Below are positions 1-15,818 of a DNA stretch of 25,321 nucleotides, one piece after another. Every line of letters starts with the position of its first letter. Position 1 is the stretch's first letter. Under the pieces are notes generated by a model. The model made no database searches. It was not told the DNA's origin and saw nothing but the letters and a program-made list of their open reading frames with translations. Location: the IMG/VR virus record IMGVR_UViG_3300030090_003037, positions 1 through 25,321 of that record. One strand, given 5' to 3'. The stretch is from a virus. The translations under genes were made by a program, and so were the position numbers.

Positions 1-2850
1 ATTATGTTCACTATCTGCTGTCCCAGCACCATTACCAGCATTATATTTAATGTTTCTTATTGCGCTTGTTCCATTGCTGCCGATAATTATGGTTTGTGAT
101 GATGTGCTGATTAACGGTCTAGCGTAATTACTACCCATGTTACCAAGAAGACCTCTGCCTACATCAGACATGTATATAGCGCCACCTTGGGTGTCTAATC
201 CAGCCCAACCAGCAGCACCTTTGACTTGCATAGTTCCTTCAGCATGAAGCATTGCTAAAGGACTATTTGTTCCTATACCGACTTTATCGCCAAATAGTCC
301 TGTCACACCAGAAACATGAGGACCAGTAGAAACAATAGATGTTGTTGTTTCATTCCCGCGAGTTGTAACGGTTTGTAAAGTATCAGCTTCTGCTGGGTTA
401 TTCTCACCAGTTAAAACTGGAACTCCACTTACATGCAAATTATTAAAGAAACCAGTAGATGGAACATAAACACCACCAGCGAAATCGAAAGTGGCACTAT
501 TATCACCGCTTGAGGAGTGTGTGACATTTCTCCCATCAGATAGAACAGTAGCTCCATCATGAGTAATTTCTATTTTTCTACCCCCCGCTATTGATCTATC
601 TCCGCTTATTATGTTAAATGTTCCTCCTAAAACACAAGAGTTATCTCCAACTACTTCATGATTTCCACCTCCTAAAATAGAGTTATTTTGTCCACTAATA
701 ACATGAGAAGCTCCAGCACCAATGAAGTTAAATCCTTTGGCAGATGGTCCCTGAATTGTGCTAGATTGTCCTCCACATATGACAGAACTACTTCCAAATA
801 TTTTGTTATTAAAACCTCCCCCTAAAAACGCTCCACCTGCTCCGCTAATTAAATTGCCATGTCCACCAGCCAATATCGCAAAATCAGTGGATAGGACATC
901 ATTATTGTAGCCGCCAACACTAGAACTCCATTGACTATTAGTTATATCTACTCCAGAGCCACCCCCGATAAAGTTGAAACCAAATAGGTCGCCTGATATT
1001 TTATTTTGAGCGCCACCAACTAAAGTATTAAAGTGTCCACTAATAGTATTTCCTGTTCCTCCAAGAACAGCAGATCCTGTGGCTGGAGATGCACCAATAA
1101 TTGTAGCACTAGCCCCGATTGCTACTGCTTGATCTGGGAATAAAACAAAAGTGTTACTATGTGCGGATTTAATGGATTCTACGTCTGCTCCAAGAAGTAA
1201 ACCTTCTGGGCTATCTGTAGAGTAACCAATTGATTTATCGGAATCTCCATTAAAAATAATTTTTGATCCATTAAAATTGATATCAGTAGTTGTAGCATTA
1301 CCCCTGTCTACAACATCTTGTAAAGTATCAGAGCCGCCACCTCCTGCTGCGTCACCAGAAAGCAAATAAGGGATACCTGTCGGGCCAGTTAATCTACCTG
1401 CTTCTCCTGTCCCTAACGCATTACCACTAACATTCAAGTTTCCACCATCTTCGGCATCTCCTTCCAAACCTGCCTCGATTGTAAAATCCCCCACCAGAGT
1501 TTGATCTCCTTGATTATAAAGATTTAAATCTGGCCCTTCAACCTCTGGTTCTAAAGTAATTGGTCCTATTGTAAATATTTCCTCATTAAAACCTACCTCA
1601 CTATCAACAGCTAACTTAAAAAACAAAGGAGTGCCTTCTGGTACACCATCGTTTGCAGTTAATCTTATTTTTTGCCCTTGCTGGATAGAGTTTAAGGGAT
1701 AATTGCCAACTAAACTGCTTCTGTTTGTAACAAAATCTTTAGTAGCACCTTGCCATATAGTTACATCTCCAAGGGCAACATAACTGCTATCTTCGTTAAA
1801 ACCTATATCAGCCTCAATAAAACCAGTGGTACCGCTTTCATTTACTGGTTGGTTGTTAAAATATTTAATAGCATTAGCCCTGTTTTCGGCTGTGGTTATA
1901 CCGCCAGTGTTTGGTGGGCTATGGTTTGTATAGTTTTCATTTAAAACTGTCTCTCCTGAAGATCTAACAAATATTTTATCAAAAGTAACTGTGTTAGCAT
2001 ATAAATAAAACTCGCTAGTATGTACACCGCCATCTTCGTTTACTACTTCATTCCTGATACCAAAATTTCTAGTATAAGTTCCAAATACATCTATGTTTTG
2101 AGACCTAGTTAAAGTAAAAGTAGAGTCTCCACCGACTCTGTAATTGGGGAAAACTACAGTTCCATCAGTATTTAAAATACTTATTCTTTGTTCTTTAACA
2201 AATGGATCAGCAGCTATCTGTGCCGCAGAGGTTAATGCCTGACCATTCCTATTTAATATATTAAATTGTAGAGTTGGTATATCAGTGTAAACTCCACTTC
2301 CAGTTGGTATTTTTGTTAAATCTGTGGAGTCAACTGTGAAAGAAGGTTGAAATTCATAAATCTCTCTAGTGGTAAATGGTCCCTCGTAGTAACCACTGGT
2401 TGTTATTTCAGTAGAGGAGGTTCCAATACCTATCTTTCCTGTTTCATCTGAATTAGCAATTGAAGGATTACCCTTATAAACAGCGACAAAAGCTCCAGAA
2501 TACTCTTGGCCTTTTAAAAAATTGTAAGGAGTTGTATTTCCAATTCCTAAATACCCATCAGCTTCAGATCTTAAATCGCCATTTGGAGTTGACCCGCCGA
2601 TAACTGTTGCACTTCCTGAAAATAAATTAGCAGCAGCGATAGCAGAAGCTCCTATAGATACAGGAATTGTAACTCCAGCACCTACTATCGTTGCGAATTC
2701 TACATCATACCAACCTGAAGCAACAGCTTTTGCATTTAAGTAACCACCTACGCCAGTAGAATTTATAGCATGACTCCTAGCCTCTAAACCGAAAGCATAC
2801 GCCCCTCCCTCTTTAGGAATTTTTAATATTGTAAAGCCTGTTTCAGTCAT
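1..2850 (-). CDS. Tail fibre / receptor-binding protein, partial (C-terminus beyond the left edge)
   Basis: The frame is open for 950 codons from ATG at 2850-2848 to the window edge; I read the left ~1.8 kb codon by codon and found no stop. The start overlaps the stop of the J-like gene as TAATG, so translation is probably coupled. Visible features: a copy of DTLQxVxxRGN near residue 508 and another near 825, a motif I associate with phage fibres; a Gly/Asn/Ser-rich repeat region around residues 570-770 with recurring ISG and GG-x-x-N units, likely a beta-roll or beta-helix shaft; and VGIGTNSPLAMLHA near 857-870, a sequence that often precedes an S74 endosialidase-type chaperone domain. That chaperone, if present, lies outside the window. 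Gene order and repeats make a distal fibre likely; the receptor is unknown. Confidence 0.85.
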   Translation of the reverse strand, partial: MTETGFTILKIPKEGGAYAFGLEARSHAINSTGVGGYLNAKAVASGWYDVEFATIVGAGVTIPVSIGASAIAAANLFSGSATVIGGSTPNGDLRSEADGYLGIGNTTPYNFLKGQEYSGAFVAVYKGNPSIANSDETGKIGIGTSSTEITTSGYYEGPFTTREIYEFQPSFTVDSTDLTKIPTGSGVYTDIPTLQFNILNRNGQALTSAAQIAADPFVKEQRISILNTDGTVVFPNYRVGGDSTFTLTRSQNIDVFGTYTRNFGIRNEVVNEDGGVHTSEFYLYANTVTFDKIFVRSSGETVLNENYTNHSPPNTGGITTAENRANAIKYFNNQPVNESGTTGFIEADIGFNEDSSYVALGDVTIWQGATKDFVTNRSSLVGNYPLNSIQQGQKIRLTANDGVPEGTPLFFKLAVDSEVGFNEEIFTIGPITLEPEVEGPDLNLYNQGDQTLVGDFTIEAGLEGDAEDGGNLNVSGNALGTGEAGRLTGPTGIPYLLSGDAAGGGGSDTLQDVVDRGNATTTDINFNGSKIIFNGDSDKSIGYSTDSPEGLLLGADVESIKSAHSNTFVLFPDQAVAIGASATIIGASPATGSAVLGGTGNTISGHFNTLVGGAQNKISGDLFGFNFIGGGSGVDITNSQWSSSVGGYNNDVLSTDFAILAGGHGNLISGAGGAFLGGGFNNKIFGSSSVICGGQSSTIQGPSAKGFNFIGAGASHVISGQNNSILGGGNHEVVGDNSCVLGGTFNIISGDRSIAGGRKIEITHDGATVLSDGRNVTHSSSGDNSATFDFAGGVYVPSTGFFNNLHVSGVPVLTGENNPAEADTLQTVTTRGNETTTSIVSTGPHVSGVTGLFGDKVGIGTNSPLAMLHAEGTMQVKGAAGWAGLDTQGGAIYMSDVGRGLLGNMGSNYARPLISTSSQTIIIGSNGTSAIRNIKYNAGNGAGTADSEHN

Positions 2851-5800
2851 TATAGGAGGGTTATTCTATCTAAAAATGATTTAGAAAATGTTAAAGTTTC
2901 ATCATAAACAACAAATATTCCAGATGATGCGTAGTCAGAATCAAAGAAAGCGTTTCCACCATCTCCAGCATTATTACCTAAAGCATTCACACTAAAGTTA
3001 AATACACCCACTTGATTTAATCTGTCGAATCCACCATTGGTAGCTGTTGTTGAATCATTAATTGTTTGTCCATTTGGTAGCGTTAAAATCATATTATAAC
3101 CTGTGCTATCAGCTACAGCCGACCAAGATCCTGTTACAGTGAATGTTTTGTCGGTTAAGTTAGGAACTCCAGTTGTTACAGAATTAATGCTCGGAGGGCT
3201 TAAAGTTTTATATGTAACACCATTAATTGTTTGTGCTACTTGATAACTAAATGTATTAGCTTTTTCTTCTATACTAATATTTTTATCAATAAGATTAAAT
3301 TTACCAGTGTTGTATTTTGTGGCTGTTACCAAGTATTCATTAGGTGCCTCTTCTTTCATGGAGATGACCTTGTATAAGAAGGGGTCTGCGTCTTTTATTT
3401 CAAATTTTGCAGGACTTCCTAATTTAACGAAAGGTAAAATATCTGGCTTATCGAATCCTGAAATTAATGATCCGTATGATTGGTTCACCACTAAACCCGT
3501 AACATTTAAAACAGATATTTGGTCTGGAGATATAGCGTCTACTTCAGAGACAGTTATTCCTCTCGTATAAGTGTCTAAAGATTCTATACCGCTGAATATA
3601 GCAGCAGCCCCTCTTTTATCAGCCGCAGCCATATTTATAGCTGCTAATTTTCCAGTATTTAAATCAGCTAATGTTTGAGTACCTGTTAATTCAGATATAA
3701 AATCTCCACCATATGTAGATTGTGCATCTCCAGATCCAAAAATCCAACCAGTTACTCCTGTTTCGAAATAAAGATAAGTTCCACTTTCGTTTAAACCTGT
3801 ATACAAAGCATACTCTTGGAATCTAGTATCGTTTAAACCTGTGGCTTCGGAGTATCCTTCTGTGTATCCTGAAAATCCATAATCTCCAGTATACCTTGCG
3901 TAAGTAGCTGTATCTAATCCTGTTACTGTAAAACCATAATACCTTTGCCTAATTGAGTTGGCAGTCAGCGTTAAATCTTCATAAGAATCTGCGCCTGTTG
4001 GATTGTATACGCTTAACACTCCCGTATTCATGGTGGTGTTAAATTCATTTGTTAATCTAATAGTTTCATCTGTTAAGTTAACACTTAAAACTTTGCCGAA
4101 GTTTGCTTTGTTTGTTTTTAATTCATCTTCAATTACTACAAGATCTCCAGGTTTGCATAGAAGGGTTTCTAATCCTGCTGTGAAGGCAACTTGTTGATTT
4201 TCTTTTATCTTTGAAAAAATTTGATGTTGAGCTGTTCTGCGAGCCATAGCTCTTGAAGTTATTCCAATGCCTTCTATTTTTTTCTTAAAAATACCTCTTT
4301 CTTTAATATCTTCTTCGTCCTCTACAACTTCAATTTTGGGTGCGAAATTATCAAATCTATCTCTATAACCAACTTCTATACAATTGAATTGTTCGTCTCT
4401 TCTATTGTTTGAATAAAAGAAAAGTCCATCTTTGACACTTTCGTTAGTAAAAAGATTAACAGCTTCTCTCGGCCTATCATCTACAAAATTTATTTCTGAA
4501 TTACTAAAAAATGTTCTACCTCTAAACAAAGAAGCTATAGTGTTAATAGCGTCAAAAATCTTTTGTCCTTGGTCAAAAACTATATTGCATGAAAATCTAG
4601 GCTCTTTTCCACCCCTACCATCTGTGACACCCACAAAGTAACCATCGTCATCTACGGCATCACAAAATCTTCCTATTTTATACAGTTGCCACTTATTAAT
4701 AGTTTCGACATCCAAATGAGTTCCCATGCCATATCTAGAGCTTGTGAGCAAATCATACAAGATCCATGCAGGGTTATCAGTCCACATCAATTCATCATGG
4801 AAAGATCCGTCCCAATCTCCTTTATAAACTAATTTATTTCTTTTGGTTGTATTATCAAAAATTTCTTGATTGGCATAATATCTTCTATCGACACCATTTT
4901 TTGTGGGGAAATAGTTACTTGGTAGCTTAACTTTTTTTAATTTACAATCAAAACTCCTTCTAGGTATATTGCCGAAAGCCCTAGAATCTAATTTAGTACC
5001 TACTATCGCAGAAAAAGGATAAGGTAAGTCTACATCGATTATTTCTGTTACTTTTCTTACGGAAACTGTTTTTGCCAATAACACAGAATTAGATTCATAT
5101 GAGAGCTTAGTTACTTTGACATATCTTTTTTGAGTGCTGTCCTCTTCAATAGTACCAGCCTCTATACCTCTTTCTCCATCAGAAGTTAAAACAGATTGTC
5201 TTGTGGTGACTGTTTCAGGTAGTTGGAAAGGTTTTGATAAATAGTTCAAGCTATCATTTGAGCCATTTAGTTCTATTATAAATTCTCTACCAGTTGTAGC
5301 TTGATAATCAGGGTTGCCTATATCAATTAAAGTGTTTCCTTCTATAAGGGCTACAATCCTGTAAGTATATTTTCTGAAAGGTATTTGTCCTTCTGATCCA
5401 TCACTCTTTTTTCCTATCTTACCTGTTTCTACCTCTATATTTAAAACAGAAGGGAAGGTGGTTCCTATAGAAATATCTTTGTTGTCTTGTCCTCTACCCG
5501 TCCTGACATCATCTACATCTTTAATTAATGTATCTTTTAGTTCTGCTATGTCTAAAGTAATAAATACCTCTTCGACATTCGGGTTGTATATTGTATGGAC
5601 AACAGGAATAGCTCTTTCATTAAATGCCGCTAAAGAATTTTCTCCCCAATCTGAATAATTTCTTGTTATTGCACGGGCATCTTTTCTTTCATCATCGCTT
5701 CCTTCATTTAATGGTAGACCGTTCTCTAGACTTGTGTTGAAATTAGTAGCTGTCTCGCCCAAAACATTGCTTCTTGTAAGCATGGAAGAGTTAGGCATTA

Positions 5801-7493
5801 TCCGTTGAGGAGCATTGTTTTGATCCCCTACAGAGTTTGGATTGCCATCAGATCTAGCGGTTCCAAAAGGTCCGAAGAGTTCTCTATCATATAGATGATC
5901 TATAAAAACTTTTCTAAAAAAGTCAAAAGGTTGTTGAAGTTCTGTTCCCTTTCTTAGTTCAGCTAAAACATTACTGTAGTTATATTTTAAACTAGGTGCG
6001 GGGATATTATTTATTGTGGTTTCTTGCTCAACAATTTGGTCCCTTATCTCCAGAGTTTTAGCGTATTTAAAAGAATTTAAATCACTTAAAGCAGCAATAA
6101 CTTCTTGAGGTATTTTATAAGTGTGAGAACTACCGTATTCGAAATCGGTGCCTCTGTCAGTTCTTACAAGGCTTGCGATTGTATCATTTTCGATTGGAAA
6201 CTCAAAAATTAAAAAGCCATGCATTGTGCCAGTTAAAGTTCCATCAGCTCCTATTTCTGGACAAGTAACATCAGTTACTCTCATTCCAGCATTTTCCATA
6301 ACTGCAATTAAGTTGAAATCATATTGCGATCCAACTGGAAAGGTGGTCATATTGTAAAGTTCTGTCCCATCTACAATCGATTTATTTAGATTGGAATTAG
6401 AGCTTTCTACTTTTACAGCAATAACTCCACCATAGTTAGCTGAATCCAAATGAAGCCCGACCAAATCATTAACTCCAGCACCATTGAAGCCAATTCTATT
6501 TAAAGCTCTTAAAGCTAAATCTCTTTGGAATAAATTACCACCCTCTTGATTATTATTTACATACAAATCATAAATAGTATTTACCTCTGGGAGTAATAAA
6601 TCATTAATTTCTCGCTCATTTTGGTTGAAAACTCTATGAGTGCTTTCATCAAACCAATTTCTAAAAAAGTTTCTTTCTCCTATGGTTCGTACAAGTAAAT
6701 CTGGCTGGAAAGAAAAAATGAATTTAGAAGATGCTAAAACGGAATCTGCCCATAAAAGACTGTTTAAATTCCCTGCTGGTCTATTATCTTGTCTGAAGGC
6801 TGCATTTGAGTCGTTATAGCCAGTTTGTTGTTCATCGTTTAGATACCAATTAAAAGTTTGAGCGCCAGCAGACCCTCTGTATTTTACAAACCCTCTAATG
6901 TAGACACTTAAATCGTAGCGACTGGCTGGTCGTAAAGGTTCTAACGGATCTGCTGGTAGAGATCTTCCACCAGTGCCACCTCTAACATTTTCATTTTCTG
7001 TTTGTCTTATGAAAACCATCGCCACATCTGTAGAAGATGAACCTTCATCATTATCTACCCCTCCAGCAGTGCTAGAATTTAAAGCTGTTATTCTTCCATC
7101 AGAGCTTCTAAGATCAGCTTCTTGTAATTCTTGGAAAAACTTACTACAATAAGTGACCCCTTCAGTGCTATCTAACTGCATGTTAAGGGTTTGTATTGTT
7201 TCAGTTTCTAAAGGTGTCAATTGATCTAATTCCCTTGGGGAATCAGTTGTCACAGCTACGGCGGTATCATCTAAATAAATACCCTGTAACATATTCAAGC
7301 CGTCTACAGTCTCTCCATTGGCATTAACAAGACCCTCAATTGGTCCATCGCTGACCAAATCTAATGTTTCTGCATAACTGTATGAAGCGCCATACTGCAA
7401 CTCACCCATAACAGGGGGCTTATAAATTGGGGGTTTTGGTTTCTTACTACCACCACCCCCAGCAATACTAAGTTTTTTGAGTAAATGCTTCAT
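2850..7493 (-). CDS. J: Tail tip attachment protein, lambda gpJ-like (1547 aa)
   Basis: Central tail-tip/host-specificity protein that caps the tail tube and contacts the receptor. The N-terminus has a Gly run (residues 12-16) then a segment with LDLVSDGPIEGLVN and IYLDD, the usual gpJ opening. The conserved gpJ core appears late, with NPAWILYDLLTSSRYGMG near residue 907, followed by the 'FxCNxVFDQGQKIFDAIN' and 'KPGDLVVI' type segments. The C-terminal ~120 residues look like a fibronectin III-type beta domain (near LSPPSINSV). At 1547 aa it is longer than lambda gpJ (about 1130 aa); much of the extra length lies before the core, roughly residues 90-850. Its ATG overlaps the gpI-like stop as TAATG. 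Family assignment is firm from motifs and from the L-K-I-J order; receptor specificity is not deducible. Confidence 0.9.
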   Translation of the reverse strand: MKHLLKKLSIAGGGGSKKPKPPIYKPPVMGELQYGASYSYAETLDLVSDGPIEGLVNANGETVDGLNMLQGIYLDDTAVAVTTDSPRELDQLTPLETETIQTLNMQLDSTEGVTYCSKFFQELQEADLRSSDGRITALNSSTAGGVDNDEGSSSTDVAMVFIRQTENENVRGGTGGRSLPADPLEPLRPASRYDLSVYIRGFVKYRGSAGAQTFNWYLNDEQQTGYNDSNAAFRQDNRPAGNLNSLLWADSVLASSKFIFSFQPDLLVRTIGERNFFRNWFDESTHRVFNQNEREINDLLLPEVNTIYDLYVNNNQEGGNLFQRDLALRALNRIGFNGAGVNDLVGLHLDSANYGGVIAVKVESSNSNLNKSIVDGTELYNMTTFPVGSQYDFNLIAVMENAGMRVTDVTCPEIGADGTLTGTMHGFLIFEFPIENDTIASLVRTDRGTDFEYGSSHTYKIPQEVIAALSDLNSFKYAKTLEIRDQIVEQETTINNIPAPSLKYNYSNVLAELRKGTELQQPFDFFRKVFIDHLYDRELFGPFGTARSDGNPNSVGDQNNAPQRIMPNSSMLTRSNVLGETATNFNTSLENGLPLNEGSDDERKDARAITRNYSDWGENSLAAFNERAIPVVHTIYNPNVEEVFITLDIAELKDTLIKDVDDVRTGRGQDNKDISIGTTFPSVLNIEVETGKIGKKSDGSEGQIPFRKYTYRIVALIEGNTLIDIGNPDYQATTGREFIIELNGSNDSLNYLSKPFQLPETVTTRQSVLTSDGERGIEAGTIEEDSTQKRYVKVTKLSYESNSVLLAKTVSVRKVTEIIDVDLPYPFSAIVGTKLDSRAFGNIPRRSFDCKLKKVKLPSNYFPTKNGVDRRYYANQEIFDNTTKRNKLVYKGDWDGSFHDELMWTDNPAWILYDLLTSSRYGMGTHLDVETINKWQLYKIGRFCDAVDDDGYFVGVTDGRGGKEPRFSCNIVFDQGQKIFDAINTIASLFRGRTFFSNSEINFVDDRPREAVNLFTNESVKDGLFFYSNNRRDEQFNCIEVGYRDRFDNFAPKIEVVEDEEDIKERGIFKKKIEGIGITSRAMARRTAQHQIFSKIKENQQVAFTAGLETLLCKPGDLVVIEDELKTNKANFGKVLSVNLTDETIRLTNEFNTTMNTGVLSVYNPTGADSYEDLTLTANSIRQRYYGFTVTGLDTATYARYTGDYGFSGYTEGYSEATGLNDTRFQEYALYTGLNESGTYLYFETGVTGWIFGSGDAQSTYGGDFISELTGTQTLADLNTGKLAAINMAAADKRGAAAIFSGIESLDTYTRGITVSEVDAISPDQISVLNVTGLVVNQSYGSLISGFDKPDILPFVKLGSPAKFEIKDADPFLYKVISMKEEAPNEYLVTATKYNTGKFNLIDKNISIEEKANTFSYQVAQTINGVTYKTLSPPSINSVTTGVPNLTDKTFTVTGSWSAVADSTGYNMILTLPNGQTINDSTTATNGGFDRLNQVGVFNFSVNALGNNAGDGGNAFFDSDYASSGIFVVYDETLTFSKSFLDRITLL

Positions 7494-8095
7494 TACGTTG
7501 GGTCCACTCTATTGCCTATGAATACAGGATTAGACTTACTGCCGCCCAAGGCTTTTTTGGGTGTTTGATGTTGTGGGAATGATTTAATGGTAGCTTGAAT
7601 AACTTGCGAACCAACTTTCAATCTTCCATATCCTATGGGAACAGGAGAGCCTTGACTAGCCACGTTTACTGTATTTGTAAATATTAATGATGATTTAGAA
7701 GCGTCAGCTTCAATTTCTAGAGCTTCGATTTCAGGTTTTGGTGTCAAAGCGTATGCAATAACTGCAAAAAATAATGCGCTAGCTATATTTGCTAAGAAAG
7801 GTACGCCGCCGACTAATGGCAAAAAGAAAGCTGGTCCTGCCCCTGCGATAGCTGGCACCAAATCTATTGTTTCAGGGTTTTTTACGCCAGAGATATGCTC
7901 TTCTTGAGTGACTCTTTTTTTATTAATAATAATGTCATAACAAAATCCTTGTTTTTGTAACTCTATTAATCTTTTAATAAAACCTTGTTTGTTGCAATCT
8001 ATCGCCTCCAATACATTTTTGGGATTAGGTAGTTCAAACTTAAAAGAACTTCCATATTCCCTCGCCAAAATTCCATGTATTTTTATTAGAGTCAT
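7493..8095 (-). CDS. I: Tail assembly protein, lambda gpI-like (200 aa)
   Basis: Tail-tip assembly factor acting with gpK and gpJ. Residues 1-83 fit the beta-grasp (ubiquitin-like) domain known for this family. Residues 84-117 are strongly hydrophobic and Gly/Ala-rich. Near residues 147-166 is the family signature GSPVPIGYGRLKVGSQVI. The ATG overlaps the K-like stop as ATGA, and its own stop overlaps the J start as TAATG, so K, I and J are translationally coupled. Family knowledge: JAB-domain gpK proteins are paired with beta-grasp gpI proteins, and processing of I by K has been proposed. The stretch after the beta-grasp part (PAIAGAG, residues 81-87) would be a candidate cleavage region, which is inference. 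Confidence 0.87.
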   Translation of the reverse strand: MTLIKIHGILAREYGSSFKFELPNPKNVLEAIDCNKQGFIKRLIELQKQGFCYDIIINKKRVTQEEHISGVKNPETIDLVPAIAGAGPAFFLPLVGGVPFLANIASALFFAVIAYALTPKPEIEALEIEADASKSSLIFTNTVNVASQGSPVPIGYGRLKVGSQVIQATIKSFPQHQTPKKALGGSKSNPVFIGNRVDPT

Positions 8096-8511
8096 TTTAC
8101 AGCCTTAATCCTTTCTAATATATTTACATCAGCTTCTATGGTTTTGGGCGTATAAATATTTATTTTTTTTGTATTTAAGCTGTAAATCAAAAAAGGTTGA
8201 CAACAATTATCAGACATTTTTACATCAAACTCTGATTCTTTTTCATCTCCCATTATATGGCTATGAAAAACTGCGACCATAGCATAAGAGTCTTTAAACA
8301 TTAAGTAACTTAAAGGATTTATTAAAAAATATGATCTAGGGTCATCAGAAGCATTATCTTCCAACTGAATAATAAATTCTTTATTTTCATAATCATACCC
8401 TAGAAAACCACATATTTCTTTAGTGAAATATTTATGGGCTATCTCTTTTATTTTATGAAGAGCTGAAACCTCTCCTTTACACTTGTACGTTTCTGCCATA
8501 ACTAAATCCAT
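8092..8511 (-). CDS. K: JAB/MPN (JAMM) metallopeptidase, tail assembly protein gpK-like (139 aa)
   Basis: Zinc-dependent JAMM peptidase of the tail-tip module. Numbering from ATG at 8511, the complete signature is visible: E32 in KEICGFL, H83-S-H85, then seven residues, S93 and D96 (HxH-x7-SxxD). The protein ends after the JAB domain, so the NlpC/P60 domain present in lambda gpK is missing. The frame could open at TTG 8532, but ATG 8511 is preferred because AGGA sits five bases before it and GGAGG a little further up. It overlaps the 3' end of the L-like gene by 35 bases and the I-like gene by four. Confidence 0.85.
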   Translation of the reverse strand: MDLVMAETYKCKGEVSALHKIKEIAHKYFTKEICGFLGYDYENKEFIIQLEDNASDDPRSYFLINPLSYLMFKDSYAMVAVFHSHIMGDEKESEFDVKMSDNCCQPFLIYSLNTKKINIYTPKTIEADVNILERIKAVK

Positions 8512-10594
8512 CAGTTCCTGGGAATCCTCCAAATCTAGGGTTTTCGGGTGTTGGGTTGGCCAAAAGCGTTTCTGGTGCTTCTTGATATTTTTCTTCTATA
8601 GCTTCGAACTCCCCACTACCTGTTAAATGGTATGGGCCTACAGTATGTATATCGACTAAACCGTTTCCTATCGCATTGCTACCAGTAGTGCCGTCCCACC
8701 AAGCAACTAAACGGTCACCAGTAATACCTGTAAAATTATCAACGCATTCATAATAATTACGAGGCGCATAATCGAATGAATTTGTGGTGACATTTGGAGT
8801 CCTTATTCTTTTGTATAAGAAATCTATCTCTTCTTGATTTATAGCCCTACTCCATACCGCCCAAGGTCCAATACAGCCATTCATAGAAGTAGTGTAAGCG
8901 TCTGTTTGCGGAGGATCATAACCTATTCTTCCAGCATAATATTCTACTGCTCCTAACATAAATGTTTGAGGAAGTGCTTTTTTGCCGAATGGATCATAAG
9001 TCATTGCTGTTCTTTCTGCCAAACTAGCAAAGTTTCCAAGGTTATCTGCTATTCTAGCTCTTCCAGCAGCGCTCTCTGTTTGTCGAGAGTTAGCGGTGTT
9101 ACTAGCATCTTTACTAACTCCATTTACAAAAAAACGTATCATGGTATCTTGATCGTTATCTTCGCCGTTTATAAAATTGGCAGTATCTATGCTATTGGTA
9201 ATTACATAAAGGTGCCACTCCCTTGAGTCTCCAGCTTGTTGTTCTTCATGTAGGGTTACGTTTCTATAAGCATTTACATTATCGTTTTGGCTAGTTGGGT
9301 TAATTAAATAACCACAATAATTTGCCGCAATAATGTTTCTTTTTTCTCCTCTTACTTTTGCCGTGCTACTGCCTTGTCTTATATTGTTTAAGCTTGTGTT
9401 GGCATTAATATTTAAAAACTGCATATTAGGCCAGTTTTGGTCATCTCTAGGAGATGTGCTTAAAACTCCAGCGCCGACAGGACTGTTGATGTTTACATTT
9501 ACCCAGCCCATTATAGTCCATGCTCCAGTAAAATGCCCAGTCAATCCATCTACCGTTGAATGAAATAATCCCGTATGGGCAGGAATCTCTGGATCGTCTT
9601 CGCTAGACATCCCCGATATTCTTACTCCACTAAAGCCACTTTGGATGTTCTGCCCTGCTACAAAACTAACTAAATCAATATCATTAAATCTTTTTCTGCA
9701 AGCTGATAGTTTTTTAGTACACCCATCTTTTTGCCAGTAAGTGGGGTTGCCATCTGGAGATTGTCCACTATTACCAGAAACACACACAAAGACTGTTTTA
9801 AGAGGTGTGCCGACTTCATTAGGATTTAGACTAGCTAACGTAATTGTCGGGCTTTCTTGTATGGCGATATCTCCTTTTACATAAGCTCTTGTCGAGTCCC
9901 ATAACGCCGAAGGATCATCAAAAAATGAGACAGGTGAGTTTGCAGGAGATTGATAGCTAGGCACAACGGGACCACCAGTGGGGTCGAGAAAAGACTCGCC
10001 GTCATCTCTTTCTATGGGTAATCCAGCGTATCTACAACCCTCCCCTCTATATTGCCAATAGCAAAACTTAGATACAATACTCCTATTGTTTACAGTAAAA
10101 TTTTCTAAGTCCAGTGGAGAGTTTAATTCAAACTCAACAAATATTTTTGACTCTTGAGTTTTTCTGCCCATCAGCCAAGTCTCATCGGTTAACTCTGCTT
10201 TAGGATCTGCTGTGCCAAATGGGTTGCCTCCCTCAAAGTTTTCGTCATCTATAAATTTAACTGATACTCTTTTTCTGACAATTTTGGCGTTTTTAAAGTC
10301 TTTATAGTTCTGTAAAAAGTTTGTGATGACATTGTTTTTGTTAGCTACTCTTATTTTTGGTCTAGCTAATTTACCATCCCCCAATATATCAAAACCCTCC
10401 GATTCAATAGCTAGAGGCAAGTATTGAACCCCTTGCCAAACCACTGACTTGTCATAAACAACTCCTCCATGAAACCCCAAAAACAAGCTGGGCTTATTGA
10501 TTCTATCAGGGAAAATTCTAAATAGCTCTAATACAGCGGTAGGCTGTAGATCTAATAAGCTACTTGCTACTTTATTTTGTCCTTCTGCCGCCAT
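8477..10594 (-). CDS. L: Minor tail protein L-like with two inserted carbohydrate-binding-type segments (705 aa)
   Basis: The N-terminal ~200 residues match lambda gpL: NSPLDLENFTVNNRSI (158-173) followed by C178 and C187 in CYWQYRGEGCRYAG, then C292 and C299 in DGCTKKLSACRKRF. In lambda gpL four such cysteines bind an iron-sulphur cluster. Two unusual insertions are seen. Residues ~228-290, between the two Cys pairs, have WDSTRAYVKGD and YWQKDGC, resembling a CBM5/12 chitin-binding-type module. Residues ~310-660 resemble a LamG/concanavalin-like jelly roll (AWTIMGWV, IRFFVNG, MNGCIGPWAVWSRAIN). The canonical C-terminal FGGFPG returns at 688-693. It is first in the tail-tip operon. No good Shine-Dalgarno is visible; a GTGTAA element sits just upstream. 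Confidence 0.85.
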   Translation of the reverse strand: MAAEGQNKVASSLLDLQPTAVLELFRIFPDRINKPSLFLGFHGGVVYDKSVVWQGVQYLPLAIESEGFDILGDGKLARPKIRVANKNNVITNFLQNYKDFKNAKIVRKRVSVKFIDDENFEGGNPFGTADPKAELTDETWLMGRKTQESKIFVEFELNSPLDLENFTVNNRSIVSKFCYWQYRGEGCRYAGLPIERDDGESFLDPTGGPVVPSYQSPANSPVSFFDDPSALWDSTRAYVKGDIAIQESPTITLASLNPNEVGTPLKTVFVCVSGNSGQSPDGNPTYWQKDGCTKKLSACRKRFNDIDLVSFVAGQNIQSGFSGVRISGMSSEDDPEIPAHTGLFHSTVDGLTGHFTGAWTIMGWVNVNINSPVGAGVLSTSPRDDQNWPNMQFLNINANTSLNNIRQGSSTAKVRGEKRNIIAANYCGYLINPTSQNDNVNAYRNVTLHEEQQAGDSREWHLYVITNSIDTANFINGEDNDQDTMIRFFVNGVSKDASNTANSRQTESAAGRARIADNLGNFASLAERTAMTYDPFGKKALPQTFMLGAVEYYAGRIGYDPPQTDAYTTSMNGCIGPWAVWSRAINQEEIDFLYKRIRTPNVTTNSFDYAPRNYYECVDNFTGITGDRLVAWWDGTTGSNAIGNGLVDIHTVGPYHLTGSGEFEAIEEKYQEAPETLLANPTPENPRFGGFPGTDGFSYGRNVQV

Positions 10595-10600
10595 ATTTTA

Positions 10601-10620
10601 ATTTACACTTCATTATTATA
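10601..10620 (-). promoter_or_regulatory. Putative promoter of the tail-tip operon (GTGTAAAT class, plus upstream TATAAT)
   Basis: Reading the minus strand, GTGTAAAT (10608-10601) is followed by TAAAAT and then the ATG of the L-like gene. This is the same GTGTAA element found 8-10 bases before five other start codons here. Ten bases further up is TATAAT (10620-10615), an alternative sigma70-type -10 that would give a 14-base leader. No TTGACA-like -35 is seen. Confidence 0.5.
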
Positions 10621-10624
10621 TAAT
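10619..10624 (+). promoter_or_regulatory. Possible -10 box for the rightward spanin operon
   Basis: TATAAT lies 11 bases before the GTG start at 10636, inside the 41-base divergent gap between the tail operon and the rightward genes. It overlaps the minus-strand TATAAT because the AT-rich core is nearly palindromic. No convincing -35 is present, so this is tentative. Confidence 0.35.
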
Positions 10625-10635
10625 ATTAAAAAGAA

Positions 10636-11346
10636 GTGAAAATTACACAGTTAAAAGAAACATCAGAGGCATGGGAGCATTTTTATGATTTTTGTGTTAA
10701 ATCTAAACCTTATGATTTTTGCTCGATAAAATCTAAAACCCTTAGAGACTGTAAAATAAAAAATAGTTTTGATGAATTCTCGTCATATGATGTCTATAAA
10801 GCACAAGAGGCAAATACCCTTATAGGTTTTTGTTTTTTAAAAGAAGAAGAGTTTTGTTTTGATGTAGCTTTTATATTTGGTATCTGGCGTAGCGTTAGAA
10901 GCTCTAAATTAATAGAGGCTACCCATGCAATATTTCATGAGGCTTTAAGCAAAAGTAATAAAAAATATTTAAAAAGCGAAATAAGACGCACATTTAAAGT
11001 AGATCCATACAAAAAATGGATTGAAAAATATGATAAGACTGCTATTATTTTTAACGACGATAACAATACTGTAGTTTGGTGCAATAGAAACGTAATGACT
11101 GTTAAATTTAAAGTAGTAGGAACAAATAAAACCACAGAATATTTGATGGGGAAAGAACTCCTGTTGGGGAAAACACAAAAAATCCCTCACGGTTTAATGA
11201 GAGAATTCAATGATGGAGAAAAAACTTACCTAGTTGATGAAAAAGGGGTTGACTTCCTATCTGAATCTGTTTTGCTGCATGGAGTTATTTCTGATAACGA
11301 AAAAAATGTAGGGAATATTTCTCTACAATTCATACCAGACAAATGA
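10636..11346 (+). CDS. Phage protein of unknown function, possibly GNAT-like (236 aa)
   Basis: I do not recognise the family with certainty. The start is GTG at 10636; no ATG lies upstream in frame within the short divergent gap. Residues ~60-140 (NTLIGFCFLKEE, then a helix with SSKLIEATHAIFHEAL, then IRRTFKVDPYKKWIEKY) have the strand-helix-strand layout and 'family-then-partner-strand' look of phage GNAT-fold proteins, but no clear acetyl-CoA loop is visible. Residues ~150-236 form a second, beta-rich part. It heads an operon with the next small gene (ATGA overlap) and the spanins, and sits next to the tail-tip operon, so a virion-related or lysis-time role is plausible but unproven. Confidence 0.6.
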   Translation: MKITQLKETSEAWEHFYDFCVKSKPYDFCSIKSKTLRDCKIKNSFDEFSSYDVYKAQEANTLIGFCFLKEEEFCFDVAFIFGIWRSVRSSKLIEATHAIFHEALSKSNKKYLKSEIRRTFKVDPYKKWIEKYDKTAIIFNDDNNTVVWCNRNVMTVKFKVVGTNKTTEYLMGKELLLGKTQKIPHGLMREFNDGEKTYLVDEKGVDFLSESVLLHGVISDNEKNVGNISLQFIPDK

Positions 11347-13040: not shown

Positions 13041-13642
13041 GACCAAAGTTTATTGTTTATTGTTTAGCCGCCATCTGTTTTGCCTTTGCTACTAAAGGTT
13101 TGCTTTTGACAGAAAATATCCAGAACACGCTAAAAGAAAATGCAAGGCAATCAGAGTCTTCTATTATGGAAATAGGAATGTGTTTTGATTGGTATGGCGT
13201 AATTATTGTAGATTCGGTTGTAAAAACATCTCACGGTGTCATAACTCCAGCAGAAATGGTAGAGACCTTAGAGGAGGAGAGGGTATATAAGGATGAATAT
13301 TTAGAAGGCTATAAGAAGGATATAACCCCAAAAGAGGTTGAGTATGCAGATTTTGTATTCGAACAAGAAAAGAAAATAAATCTTTATGTTAACCAATTAA
13401 TTGAATGGGGTAATACAAATAATGTTGAATTGATTAAAGCATCAGTTCCTACGATGTATGAGATGACTGACCCGACAATAGAAGCCATCAACAACATCAT
13501 GGATACAAAAATGTATTACAATGAGGAACAAGCTGCGATTTTAAATGAAAAAATAACTGATTACAAAAACTTCATGATACTAACAGTTGTTTTATGTATT
13601 GTGATGTCTGTGTGTGCTAGTTTTAGTAGAAGGTGTGCATAA
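13037..13642 (+). CDS. Two-TM protein with periplasmic helical bundle, resembling a chemoreceptor sensor domain (201 aa)
   Basis: Residues ~5-24 and ~178-197 are membrane spans; the ~155 residues between are almost entirely helical and charged, with long amphipathic stretches, resembling the four-helix-bundle ligand-binding domain of methyl-accepting chemotaxis proteins. There is no HAMP or signalling domain: the protein ends seven residues after the second span. It is coupled to the holin (ATGA) and the endolysin (TAATG), so it belongs to the lysis cassette. A role in lysis timing, for example as an antiholin-like periplasmic sensor, is inference from position and topology. No family is recognised with certainty. 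Confidence 0.65.
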   Translation: MRPKFIVYCLAAICFAFATKGLLLTENIQNTLKENARQSESSIMEIGMCFDWYGVIIVDSVVKTSHGVITPAEMVETLEEERVYKDEYLEGYKKDITPKEVEYADFVFEQEKKINLYVNQLIEWGNTNNVELIKASVPTMYEMTDPTIEAINNIMDTKMYYNEEQAAILNEKITDYKNFMILTVVLCIVMSVCASFSRRCA

Positions 13643-14262
13643 TGAATTTTAAAGGTAAAAAAGAAGTAGTAAGAGCGGTTCAGAAACTCCTTGGAGTATC
13701 TGCTGACGGTGCTGATGGACCCGTCACTTGGAATGCTATTTTAGCCAAGTTATCTACTAAGGAACCTGTAGCTTCTGGTGGCACCATACCAGAGAAAATG
13801 GTATCTTTAGCTAGGGAAGAAATAGGAGTTTCTGAAGTCGATGGTAGTAATTGTGGGCCAAGAGTAGATGAATATAAAGCTGCCACATGGTTAGATGCCG
13901 ACAAAGGTTGGCCGTGGTGTGCTGCTTTTATTTGTTGGCTTGTGAGAGAAGCTATAGAGGGAGAAGATGTAAAATTCAAGAGACCTAGAACTGCTGGAGC
14001 TTGGGATTTTGAAAACTGGGCTAAACAACAAAGCACAAATGGAGTCGAGCTTCGTAAACCTACAAACGAAGATATTAAAGCAGGTGATATTGTTGTATTT
14101 ACTTTTTCTCATATTGGATTAGCTGTAAAGGACGCAGACTCAAGTGGTTATGTAGTTACTATTGAGGGTAACACAAATGGGGCGGGAAGCAGAGAGGGAG
14201 GTTCTGTTTTAGAAAAGAAGCGCCATGTTTCTAAAATAAGAAGCAGAATAAGAATACTTTAG
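13642..14262 (+). CDS. Endolysin: peptidoglycan-binding segment plus CHAP peptidase domain (206 aa)
   Basis: Cell-wall hydrolase released through the holin. Residues ~5-37 (VRAVQKLLGVSADGADGPVT) match a peptidoglycan-binding domain 1 repeat. Residues ~50-206 match a CHAP amidase/endopeptidase with catalytic Cys93 in WPWCAAFICW, His157 in FSHIGLAV, and Glu175/Asn177 in TIEGNT. The start is ATG 13642, overlapping the previous stop as TAATG; an in-frame GTG at 13633 would add only three residues. No signal peptide is present, so release depends on the holin. Confidence 0.88.
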   Translation: MNFKGKKEVVRAVQKLLGVSADGADGPVTWNAILAKLSTKEPVASGGTIPEKMVSLAREEIGVSEVDGSNCGPRVDEYKAATWLDADKGWPWCAAFICWLVREAIEGEDVKFKRPRTAGAWDFENWAKQQSTNGVELRKPTNEDIKAGDIVVFTFSHIGLAVKDADSSGYVVTIEGNTNGAGSREGGSVLEKKRHVSKIRSRIRIL

Positions 14263-14735: not shown

Positions 14736-15232
14736 TAACATTACCAATCAAAAGAGAGTTATACGATTATAGTAAAAAACTAATAGAAGAAAACAATTTC
14801 GGTCAGAGAGGTAAAGACGATGGTAGCCCAAAAGAACAATTTATTGGTATTCTATCTGAAAATATGGTGAGGCAGTATCTAGAGCTTCCGTTAATAGAAC
14901 CTAAAGGCTTCGATGGTGGTTATGATATCATGTATAAAGAGAAAAAGGCTGATATAAAATCAATGAATAGGACTGTGGACCCCAAACCTTTTTACATAAA
15001 TAATGTTTTTGATGTTCAATTAAAACATCCATCAGAAGTTTATATCTTTACTTCTCTAAATACTAAAAAGAAAAACCTGTCTATCTGTGGATGGGTATCA
15101 AAAGACGATTTTAAAAAGAGGGCATCTTTCTATCCTAAAGGGACAGTCCGAATGAGAGGCCCAGAACCCTTTCCTCTAAGAGCAGACAATTGGGAAATTA
15201 AAAATGAAGATTTAAATGAATTTAGTAAATGA
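14732..15232 (+). CDS. Possible PD-(D/E)XK nuclease-fold protein (166 aa)
   Basis: Residues ~36-80 have the order expected of the fold: a helix with Glu43 (FIGILSENMVRQYL), then a strand with Asp64 in GGYDIMY, then ADIKS with Asp74 and Lys76 as the (D/E)XK element. The C-terminal half alternates strands and loops (YIFTSLNTKKKNLSICGWV) as in several phage proteins with a restriction-endonuclease-like core. No DNA-binding domain is visible. It is coupled to the upstream basic mini-gene by ATGA and overlaps the pyrophosphatase start by 17 bases. Fold assignment is by motif only. Confidence 0.55.
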   Translation: MITLPIKRELYDYSKKLIEENNFGQRGKDDGSPKEQFIGILSENMVRQYLELPLIEPKGFDGGYDIMYKEKKADIKSMNRTVDPKPFYINNVFDVQLKHPSEVYIFTSLNTKKKNLSICGWVSKDDFKKRASFYPKGTVRMRGPEPFPLRADNWEIKNEDLNEFSK

Positions 15233-15818
15233 CATACCCATTACATCAGATGATTATGAGCATGTAAATTGCATCGTAGAGATTCCTAAAGGAACCAATA
15301 CAAAATATGAGTATGATGAGAATTTAAATATATTTAAATTAGATAGATGCCTTGTTTCTTCATTGCAGTATCCAATTAACTACGGTTTTATTCCACAAAC
15401 TATTGCTCTTGACAATGATCCTTTAGATGTCTTGATTTTTAATCATGACCCAATAGATAGGGGAAGCTTAGTATCTTGTCGGATTCTTGGTGTTTTAGGA
15501 TTTATTGACGGTGGAGAAATTGATAATAAATTAATTGCTGTTCCTCATTGGTCTCCTATAGATAAGTATAGAACAGTTCATGATATTGAGTCAGCTCACC
15601 TTAAAATATATAGGCAATTTTTCAAAATTTACAAAATAGACAGGGATTCTGACACTAAAGTCGGAGATTGGAAGTCTAAAGGTGTGGCGCTTAGAGTCGC
15701 TAAAGATTCTAATGAAAGATGGAAAAAAGCTAACCAAGAAAGATTTCATGAGGAGTGGGCAGAAAGGCAACTTTGGTCTAAAATCAAAGAAAAAGGTTAC
15801 ATAGTACAACCTGATTAG
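15216..15818 (+). CDS. ppa: Inorganic pyrophosphatase, family I (200 aa)
   Basis: Hydrolyses pyrophosphate to phosphate, pulling DNA and RNA polymerisation forward. The active site is well conserved: VEIPKG with Glu22, Arg44, YPINYGFIP with Tyr52/Tyr56, DNDPLDVLIF with Asp66, Asp68 and Asp71, and IDGGEIDNKLIAVP with Asp98, Asp103 and Lys105. Spacing follows the E. coli enzyme almost residue for residue. Length is slightly above the bacterial 175 aa. The GHG-like loop after AVP is HWSPIDKY. It is unusual in a phage; MazG-like and other nucleotide genes lie downstream, suggesting a nucleotide-pool role during replication. The start ATG lies 17 bases inside the previous gene. Confidence 0.93.
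   Translation: MNLVNDIPITSDDYEHVNCIVEIPKGTNTKYEYDENLNIFKLDRCLVSSLQYPINYGFIPQTIALDNDPLDVLIFNHDPIDRGSLVSCRILGVLGFIDGGEIDNKLIAVPHWSPIDKYRTVHDIESAHLKIYRQFFKIYKIDRDSDTKVGDWKSKGVALRVAKDSNERWKKANQERFHEEWAERQLWSKIKEKGYIVQPD

Follow-up and report, generated by a model that had tools for sequence, protein, structure and literature searches.

Does the unusually long gpL homologue of this virus owe its length to domains added to an otherwise intact tail-tip hub, and what might such domains do at the end of the tail? The DNA that we have analyzed is an IMG/VR virus record of 25,321 bases, probably a fragment, which we refer to in its full length as the window.

The gpL gene and its conserved core

The features of the gene and of its core are as follows.

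8477..10594, minus strand: gpL homologue (tail-tip hub), 705 aa, ATG start, no internal stops
10085..10594, minus strand: HDI/attachment domain, gpL residues 1-170, as seen in the AlphaFold2 (AF2) model of residues 1-305
10034..10063, minus strand: first cysteine pair, C178/C187 (CYWQYRGEGC), aligned to lambda C173/C182
9698..9721, minus strand: second cysteine pair, C292/C299, aligned to lambda C205/C212 in a weak second segment
8480..8533, minus strand: conserved C-terminal tail FGGFPGTDGFSYG, residues 688-705, starting with F688-GGFPG

The ORF at 8477-10594 encodes a homologue of gpL and heads an L-K-I-J tail-tip cassette: it matches PF05100 (E=4.2e-41, 141 bits against a cut-off of 25, residues 47-199), phrog_18 (E=4e-51) and lambda gpL 8iyk (E=9.5e-22). 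Because the N-terminus was poor in the full-length AF2 model, residues 1-305 were modelled separately with a deeper alignment (pLDDT 87). Residues 12-170 of this second model superimpose on lambda gpL (8iyk_L; Z 16.8, rmsd 3.6, 151 aligned), which is followed in the list of matches by the counterparts in T1, Sf11, JBD30, RcGTA, Chi and R4C.

A 99-row profile of residues 1-305 matches lambda gpL at 9e-39 and places C178/C187 on lambda C173/C182; the counterparts of C292/C299, lambda C205/C212, come from a second, weak segment of that match (lambda cysteine numbering from PMC10721106). All four cysteines are invariant in each of two alignments, one of 64 and one of 99 relatives. By these alignments they stand in the lambda register, and they are predicted to hold a [4Fe-4S] cluster. 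The C-terminal tail is conserved to the same degree as the gpL core, with an entropy of 0.66 bits against 0.68 for the core and 1.72 for the insert that precedes the tail. Both cysteine pairs and F688-GGFPG are located where the initial annotation had put them, and its statement that the gpL core is intact around the added segments agrees with the lambda gpL fold match, the invariant cysteines and the conserved tail.

Two consecutive insertions

Over its full length, the 233-aa gpL of Synechococcus phage S-H1 can be aligned to the window protein, interrupted only by small indels and two large gaps, which extend from C187 to C292 and from C299 to FGGFPG in the numbering of the window protein. 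All four cysteines and FGGFPG are aligned; between the second and third cysteine S-H1 has 21 residues and the window gpL 104, and between the fourth cysteine and FGGF the corresponding numbers are 10 and 388. The excess over minimal gpLs such as that of S-H1 is therefore about 80 residues at the first site (slot 1) and about 375 at the second (slot 2). The refined boundaries are approximately 196-289 for slot 1 and 304-687 for slot 2, with a jelly-roll core at 319-672:

9728..10009, minus strand: slot-1 insert, residues 196-289, missing from S-H1, weakly CBM5/12-like
8534..9685, minus strand: slot-2 insert, residues 304-687, empty in relatives L080, L177, L209 and L241
8579..9640, minus strand: LamG/pentraxin-type jelly-roll core, residues 319-672, assigned by AF2 fold match and by PF13385 in relatives

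The two segments had been described as nested. This holds in the sense that each lies within the gpL core; an arrangement with one insert inside the other was rejected, as the S-H1 alignment shows two consecutive insertions.

Of the 198 distinct gpLs in the fetched loci, 70 are short at both sites, with some 20-39 residues at the first and under 20 at the second; in 5 only the first site is large, and in 123 both are. These proportions are not natural frequencies, because the census was seeded with queries from this phage group and with S-H1. None of the 198 is large at site 2 only. Outside L-like ORFs neither the LamG profile nor the slot-1 profile matched anything in the fetched loci. The PF05100 match, the S-H1 alignment and the census together bear out the original description of a gpL homologue with two insertions.

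The opposite view, that all gpL homologues have these residues as a normal part of their core, was named at the outset as the observation that would count against insertions. We found no point in its favor: 70 gpLs of the census lack both inserts, 5 more lack the one in slot 2, and S-H1 and R4C have only about 10 residues at slot 2. In the face of these minimal homologues this view was rejected, and we consider it almost certainly wrong.

Slot 2: a LamG-like jelly roll

In the AF2 model the stretch 304-687 is a jelly roll, with mostly good confidence. Its top fold match is the LamG domain of PAPP-A (Z 17.2, rmsd 3.6, 213 aligned, residues 320-672), with further matches to BACOVA_03559, a putative carbohydrate-binding protein of Bacteroides (Z 15.7), and to pentraxins (Z about 13). 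The family HMM PF13385 matches the inserts of 7 of 33 relatives (best E 2.7e-7), while the window's own insert has no match to it. As judged from the model, slot 2 holds a jelly roll of the LamG/pentraxin type, in keeping with what had been read from the sequence alone, and ligand binding by it is a prediction. LamG domains are frequently protein-binding rather than sugar-binding, and LamG jelly rolls are frequent on viral proteins. In cultured phages (50,697 phage records) tblastn gave no match to the LamG insert at E<=1.

In L080, L177, L209 and L241 slot 2 is empty, with slot 1 and FGG[FY]PG retained. The content of a filled slot 2 also varies. In the gpL of L195 (4001-6364) a DUF7402/F5-8-type domain (E 1e-9) opens the slot, ahead of the remaining insert; L074 and L076 carry an additional stretch inside the insert, starting with NYLR.S; and the inserts of the L220 group are too diverged from LamG for a sequence link to be established by hhalign.

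Slot 1: a probable CBM5/12-like domain

Among Pfam families, PF02839 (CBM5/12) matches slot 1 most often, in 8 of 38 relatives, but the matches are weak (best E 0.0096) and the window's own slot 1 has none. A comparison by hhalign of the slot-1 profile with three bacterial CBM5/12 repeats gave p=1.7e-4 and a probability of 49%. The ten PDB matches of the same profile, likewise weak (best E 0.14), are mostly chitin-deacetylase or NodB-type proteins. The relatives keep a recognizable pattern over residues 196-289 (W, Y..G..V, Y-V-C, P, N-P-x-W), and the W..Y..G..V motif of CBM5/12 is present, with Y238 and W287 invariant and G241 in at least 90% of the relatives of alignment A4. Residues 190-290 are modelled with confidence by AF2; the fold matches of the model of residues 1-305 are dominated by the HDI domain. 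Slot 1 is thus probably a CBM5/12-like domain, for which sugar binding would be expected by family resemblance. The initial assignment to CBM5/12 draws some weak support from the relatives and from hhalign, and none from a PF02839 match in the window itself.

In cultured phage genomes the only tblastn matches to slot 1 had E values of 5-7, one of them in an unrelated repetitive ORF of 1615 aa. The gpL of cyanophage S-2L (L084:2845-4152, 435 aa) carries a different, Ala-rich insert of about 180 residues in slot 1.

Divergence of the inserts and distribution on the core tree

The two inserts have changed much more rapidly than the core. Where gpL cores are 90-95% identical, the mean identity is 69% for slot 1 and 64% for slot 2, and the entropy of slot 1 (1.53 bits) approaches that given above for slot 2 (1.72, against 0.68 for the core). 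Such rapid divergence would also be compatible with a relaxed constraint on an exposed decoration.

In a tree of the core (inserts left out; a quick tree with SH-aLRT support only), the gpLs that bear slot 1 form one side of a well-supported branch, with the exception of S-2L, whose slot-1 insert is longer and unrelated-looking. The state of slot 2 changes at least 4 times, gain and loss not being distinguished, and 3 of these changes are forced by well-supported branches. Empty slots are found in at least three separate places, all among filled rows: L080, L177 and the L209/L241 pair. L080 stands beside L076, which has LamG, at 86% core identity. Another pair, L043 and L215, has 96% identity in the core and 42% in the LamG slot, a figure that may be depressed by the truncation of L043 at its 3' end; the contrast is possibly a LamG domain swap.

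A possible role of gpL as a display scaffold

What could the two domains do? We think it fairly probable that this gpL is a two-slot display scaffold, whose inserts would provide weak and reversible adhesion to host glycans at the tail tip. Sequence and model show that the attachment domain retains the usual fold and contacts of the hub, and the four Fe-S cysteines and the FGGFPG tail would retain theirs as well. The Fe-S region carries the CBM5/12-like domain in the loop separating the cysteine pairs, and the LamG/pentraxin-type jelly roll follows the last cysteine, ahead of the C-terminal tail. In lambda the outer surface bears the Fe-S domain, and three copies of gpL make up, together with J, the last ring (PMC10721106); the equivalent protein of JBD30 has its C-terminus buried in the core of the baseplate (PMC11445458). 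By analogy, the chain may exit the core at the Fe-S region, bear the two domains outside, and return to bury FGGFPG; if the tip has three gpL copies, like that of lambda, it would be encircled by three domains of each kind. Low-affinity contacts with host-surface glycans would then hold and orient the virion ahead of the engagement of J and of the fibre, a role resembling that of the CBM-decorated 'evolved Dit' of Gram-positive siphophages. We infer the surface position, the stoichiometry and the glycan binding of the inserts.

Weak host-glycan adhesion is the most economical reading and most likely the right one, its main rivals being bracing of the tip and attachment to the environment. According to the former, the inserts are structural, and brace the tip cone or dock side fibres with no contact to the host. 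Fold by itself is no proof of binding, and in JBD30 the upper-baseplate (gpL-like) and distal tail proteins do build the fibre attachment sites (PMC11445458). Nevertheless, four relatives that share the L-K-I-J cassette have nothing in slot 2, whose insert is therefore dispensable for assembly at least in those four, and both inserts are far more variable than the core, unlike a conserved docking surface; we regard a structural role as unlikely. The rapid divergence, with gain or loss, likewise suits a variable host surface better than a constant polymer, and for this reason we rate as somewhat improbable, a shade below bracing, that the inserts bind environmental polysaccharides (algal exudates, chitin, mucus, particles) and so keep virions near their hosts. 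LamG and CBM5/12-type domains are indeed present in proteins that act on polymers of this kind, and the weak PDB matches of the slot-1 profile, mostly of chitin-deacetylase type, point in the same direction. That the jelly roll is an enzyme, a ConA-like glycanase or depolymerase cutting surface polysaccharide, is very improbable: glycoside hydrolases are among the members of the ConA-like superfamily, but by fold and by HMM the jelly roll matches LamG, pentraxin and lectin-like domains best, not GH catalytic domains.

A stronger version of the adhesion idea would make the gpL hub of this phage group a main determinant of host range, beside J and the fibre, with slot 2 as a site where close relatives exchange lectin modules (LamG alone, LamG with a discoidin-like domain, LamG with a further stretch, or nothing). 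We find this doubtful, if worth bearing in mind. The L-K-I-J cassette is kept in relatives both with and without LamG, and L080 and L076 offer a natural pair for probing the part of hub decoration in adsorption.

Comparison with known tail-tip hubs

Lambda gpL (PF05100; PDB 8iyk) has the same attachment fold, four cysteines and L-K-I-J gene order, but it is only 232 aa long, with short loops at both slots. The PF09356-type hubs RcGTA g13, R4C gp14 and JBD30 gp50 have a four-Cys metal site and a domain of about 80 residues in slot 1, so that an occupied slot 1 is already known; in RcGTA and R4C this domain is named oligosaccharide-binding, and in all three hubs slot 2 has only about 10 residues. 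No sequence relation between the R4C domain and the CBM5/12-like domain described here was detected by hhalign (probability 0.1; distant homology could escape a single-sequence R4C template), and identification of slot 1 with the R4C hub domain was rejected as having no sequence support. In connection with phage LSH1, the C-terminal region of gpL has already been called hypervariable and near the cell wall (PMC13243795); the changes in LSH1 and Jersey are fold replacement and truncation, not insertion of LamG or CBM domains. A functional parallel may be evolved Dit/Tal (PMC7291167), in which CBM-type domains occupy loops of a conserved ring or hub protein at the tail tip and are thought to serve secondary host adhesion. 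There the carrier is Dit/Tal and host binding is demonstrated, whereas here the carrier is gpL and binding is proposed by analogy; this analogy would extend the 'evolved' adhesion idea of Gram-positive Dit/Tal to the gpL of lambda-like phages.

A CBM5/12-like domain in slot 1 and a LamG domain in slot 2 of gpL were not found in the open-licence papers searched, and at its sensitivity tblastn detected neither in cultured phage genomes. For the authors of the lambda tail structure the role of the widely conserved gpL Fe-S domain was unknown (PMC10721106). That two domains are accommodated with the cysteines and tail undisturbed, and that several relatives do without one of them, supports the notion of this region as a rigid, outward-facing platform.

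Neighboring genes and host

The other genes of interest in the window are listed below.

1-2850, minus strand: fibre ORF, open at the window edge
2850..7493, minus strand: gpJ homologue, phrog_31 (E=1e-99) and PF13550
7493..8095, minus strand: gpI homologue, phrog_32 (E=2e-26)
8092..8532, minus strand: gpK-like ORF with a JAB domain only, Prok-JAB (E=2e-5, just under the Pfam cut-off) and phrog_30
13633-14262, plus strand: endolysin, phrog_9589 (E 4e-15)

The initial annotation had assumed further sugar-binding domains in J and in the fibre; a Pfam scan of both revealed none. The repeat region of the fibre ORF weakly resembles an ice-binding-type beta roll (PF21300, E 0.002, below the cut-off). 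In the gpJ homologue about 790 residues precede the phrog_31 core match, compared to about 440 in the profile, so that the protein is much extended at its N-terminus; the core is followed by a stretch rich in Tyr and Gly (YARYTGDYGFSGYTEGYSEATG). The gpK-like ORF has a TTG start and overlaps the end of L, and shows no match to NlpC/P60.

No tRNA was found in the window, and no host could be assigned: the genome scan returned no prophage, and three matching MAG contigs are of uncertain binning. The ORF at 15216-15818 on the plus strand has no PHROG match; we take it, from its DNDPLDVL motif, to be a putative inorganic pyrophosphatase. L opens the series of genes on its strand, with no M or H gene directly upstream. 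Within 10594-11346, a plus-strand gene of 236 aa with no assigned family begins 42 bases away from L and is retained in most relatives.
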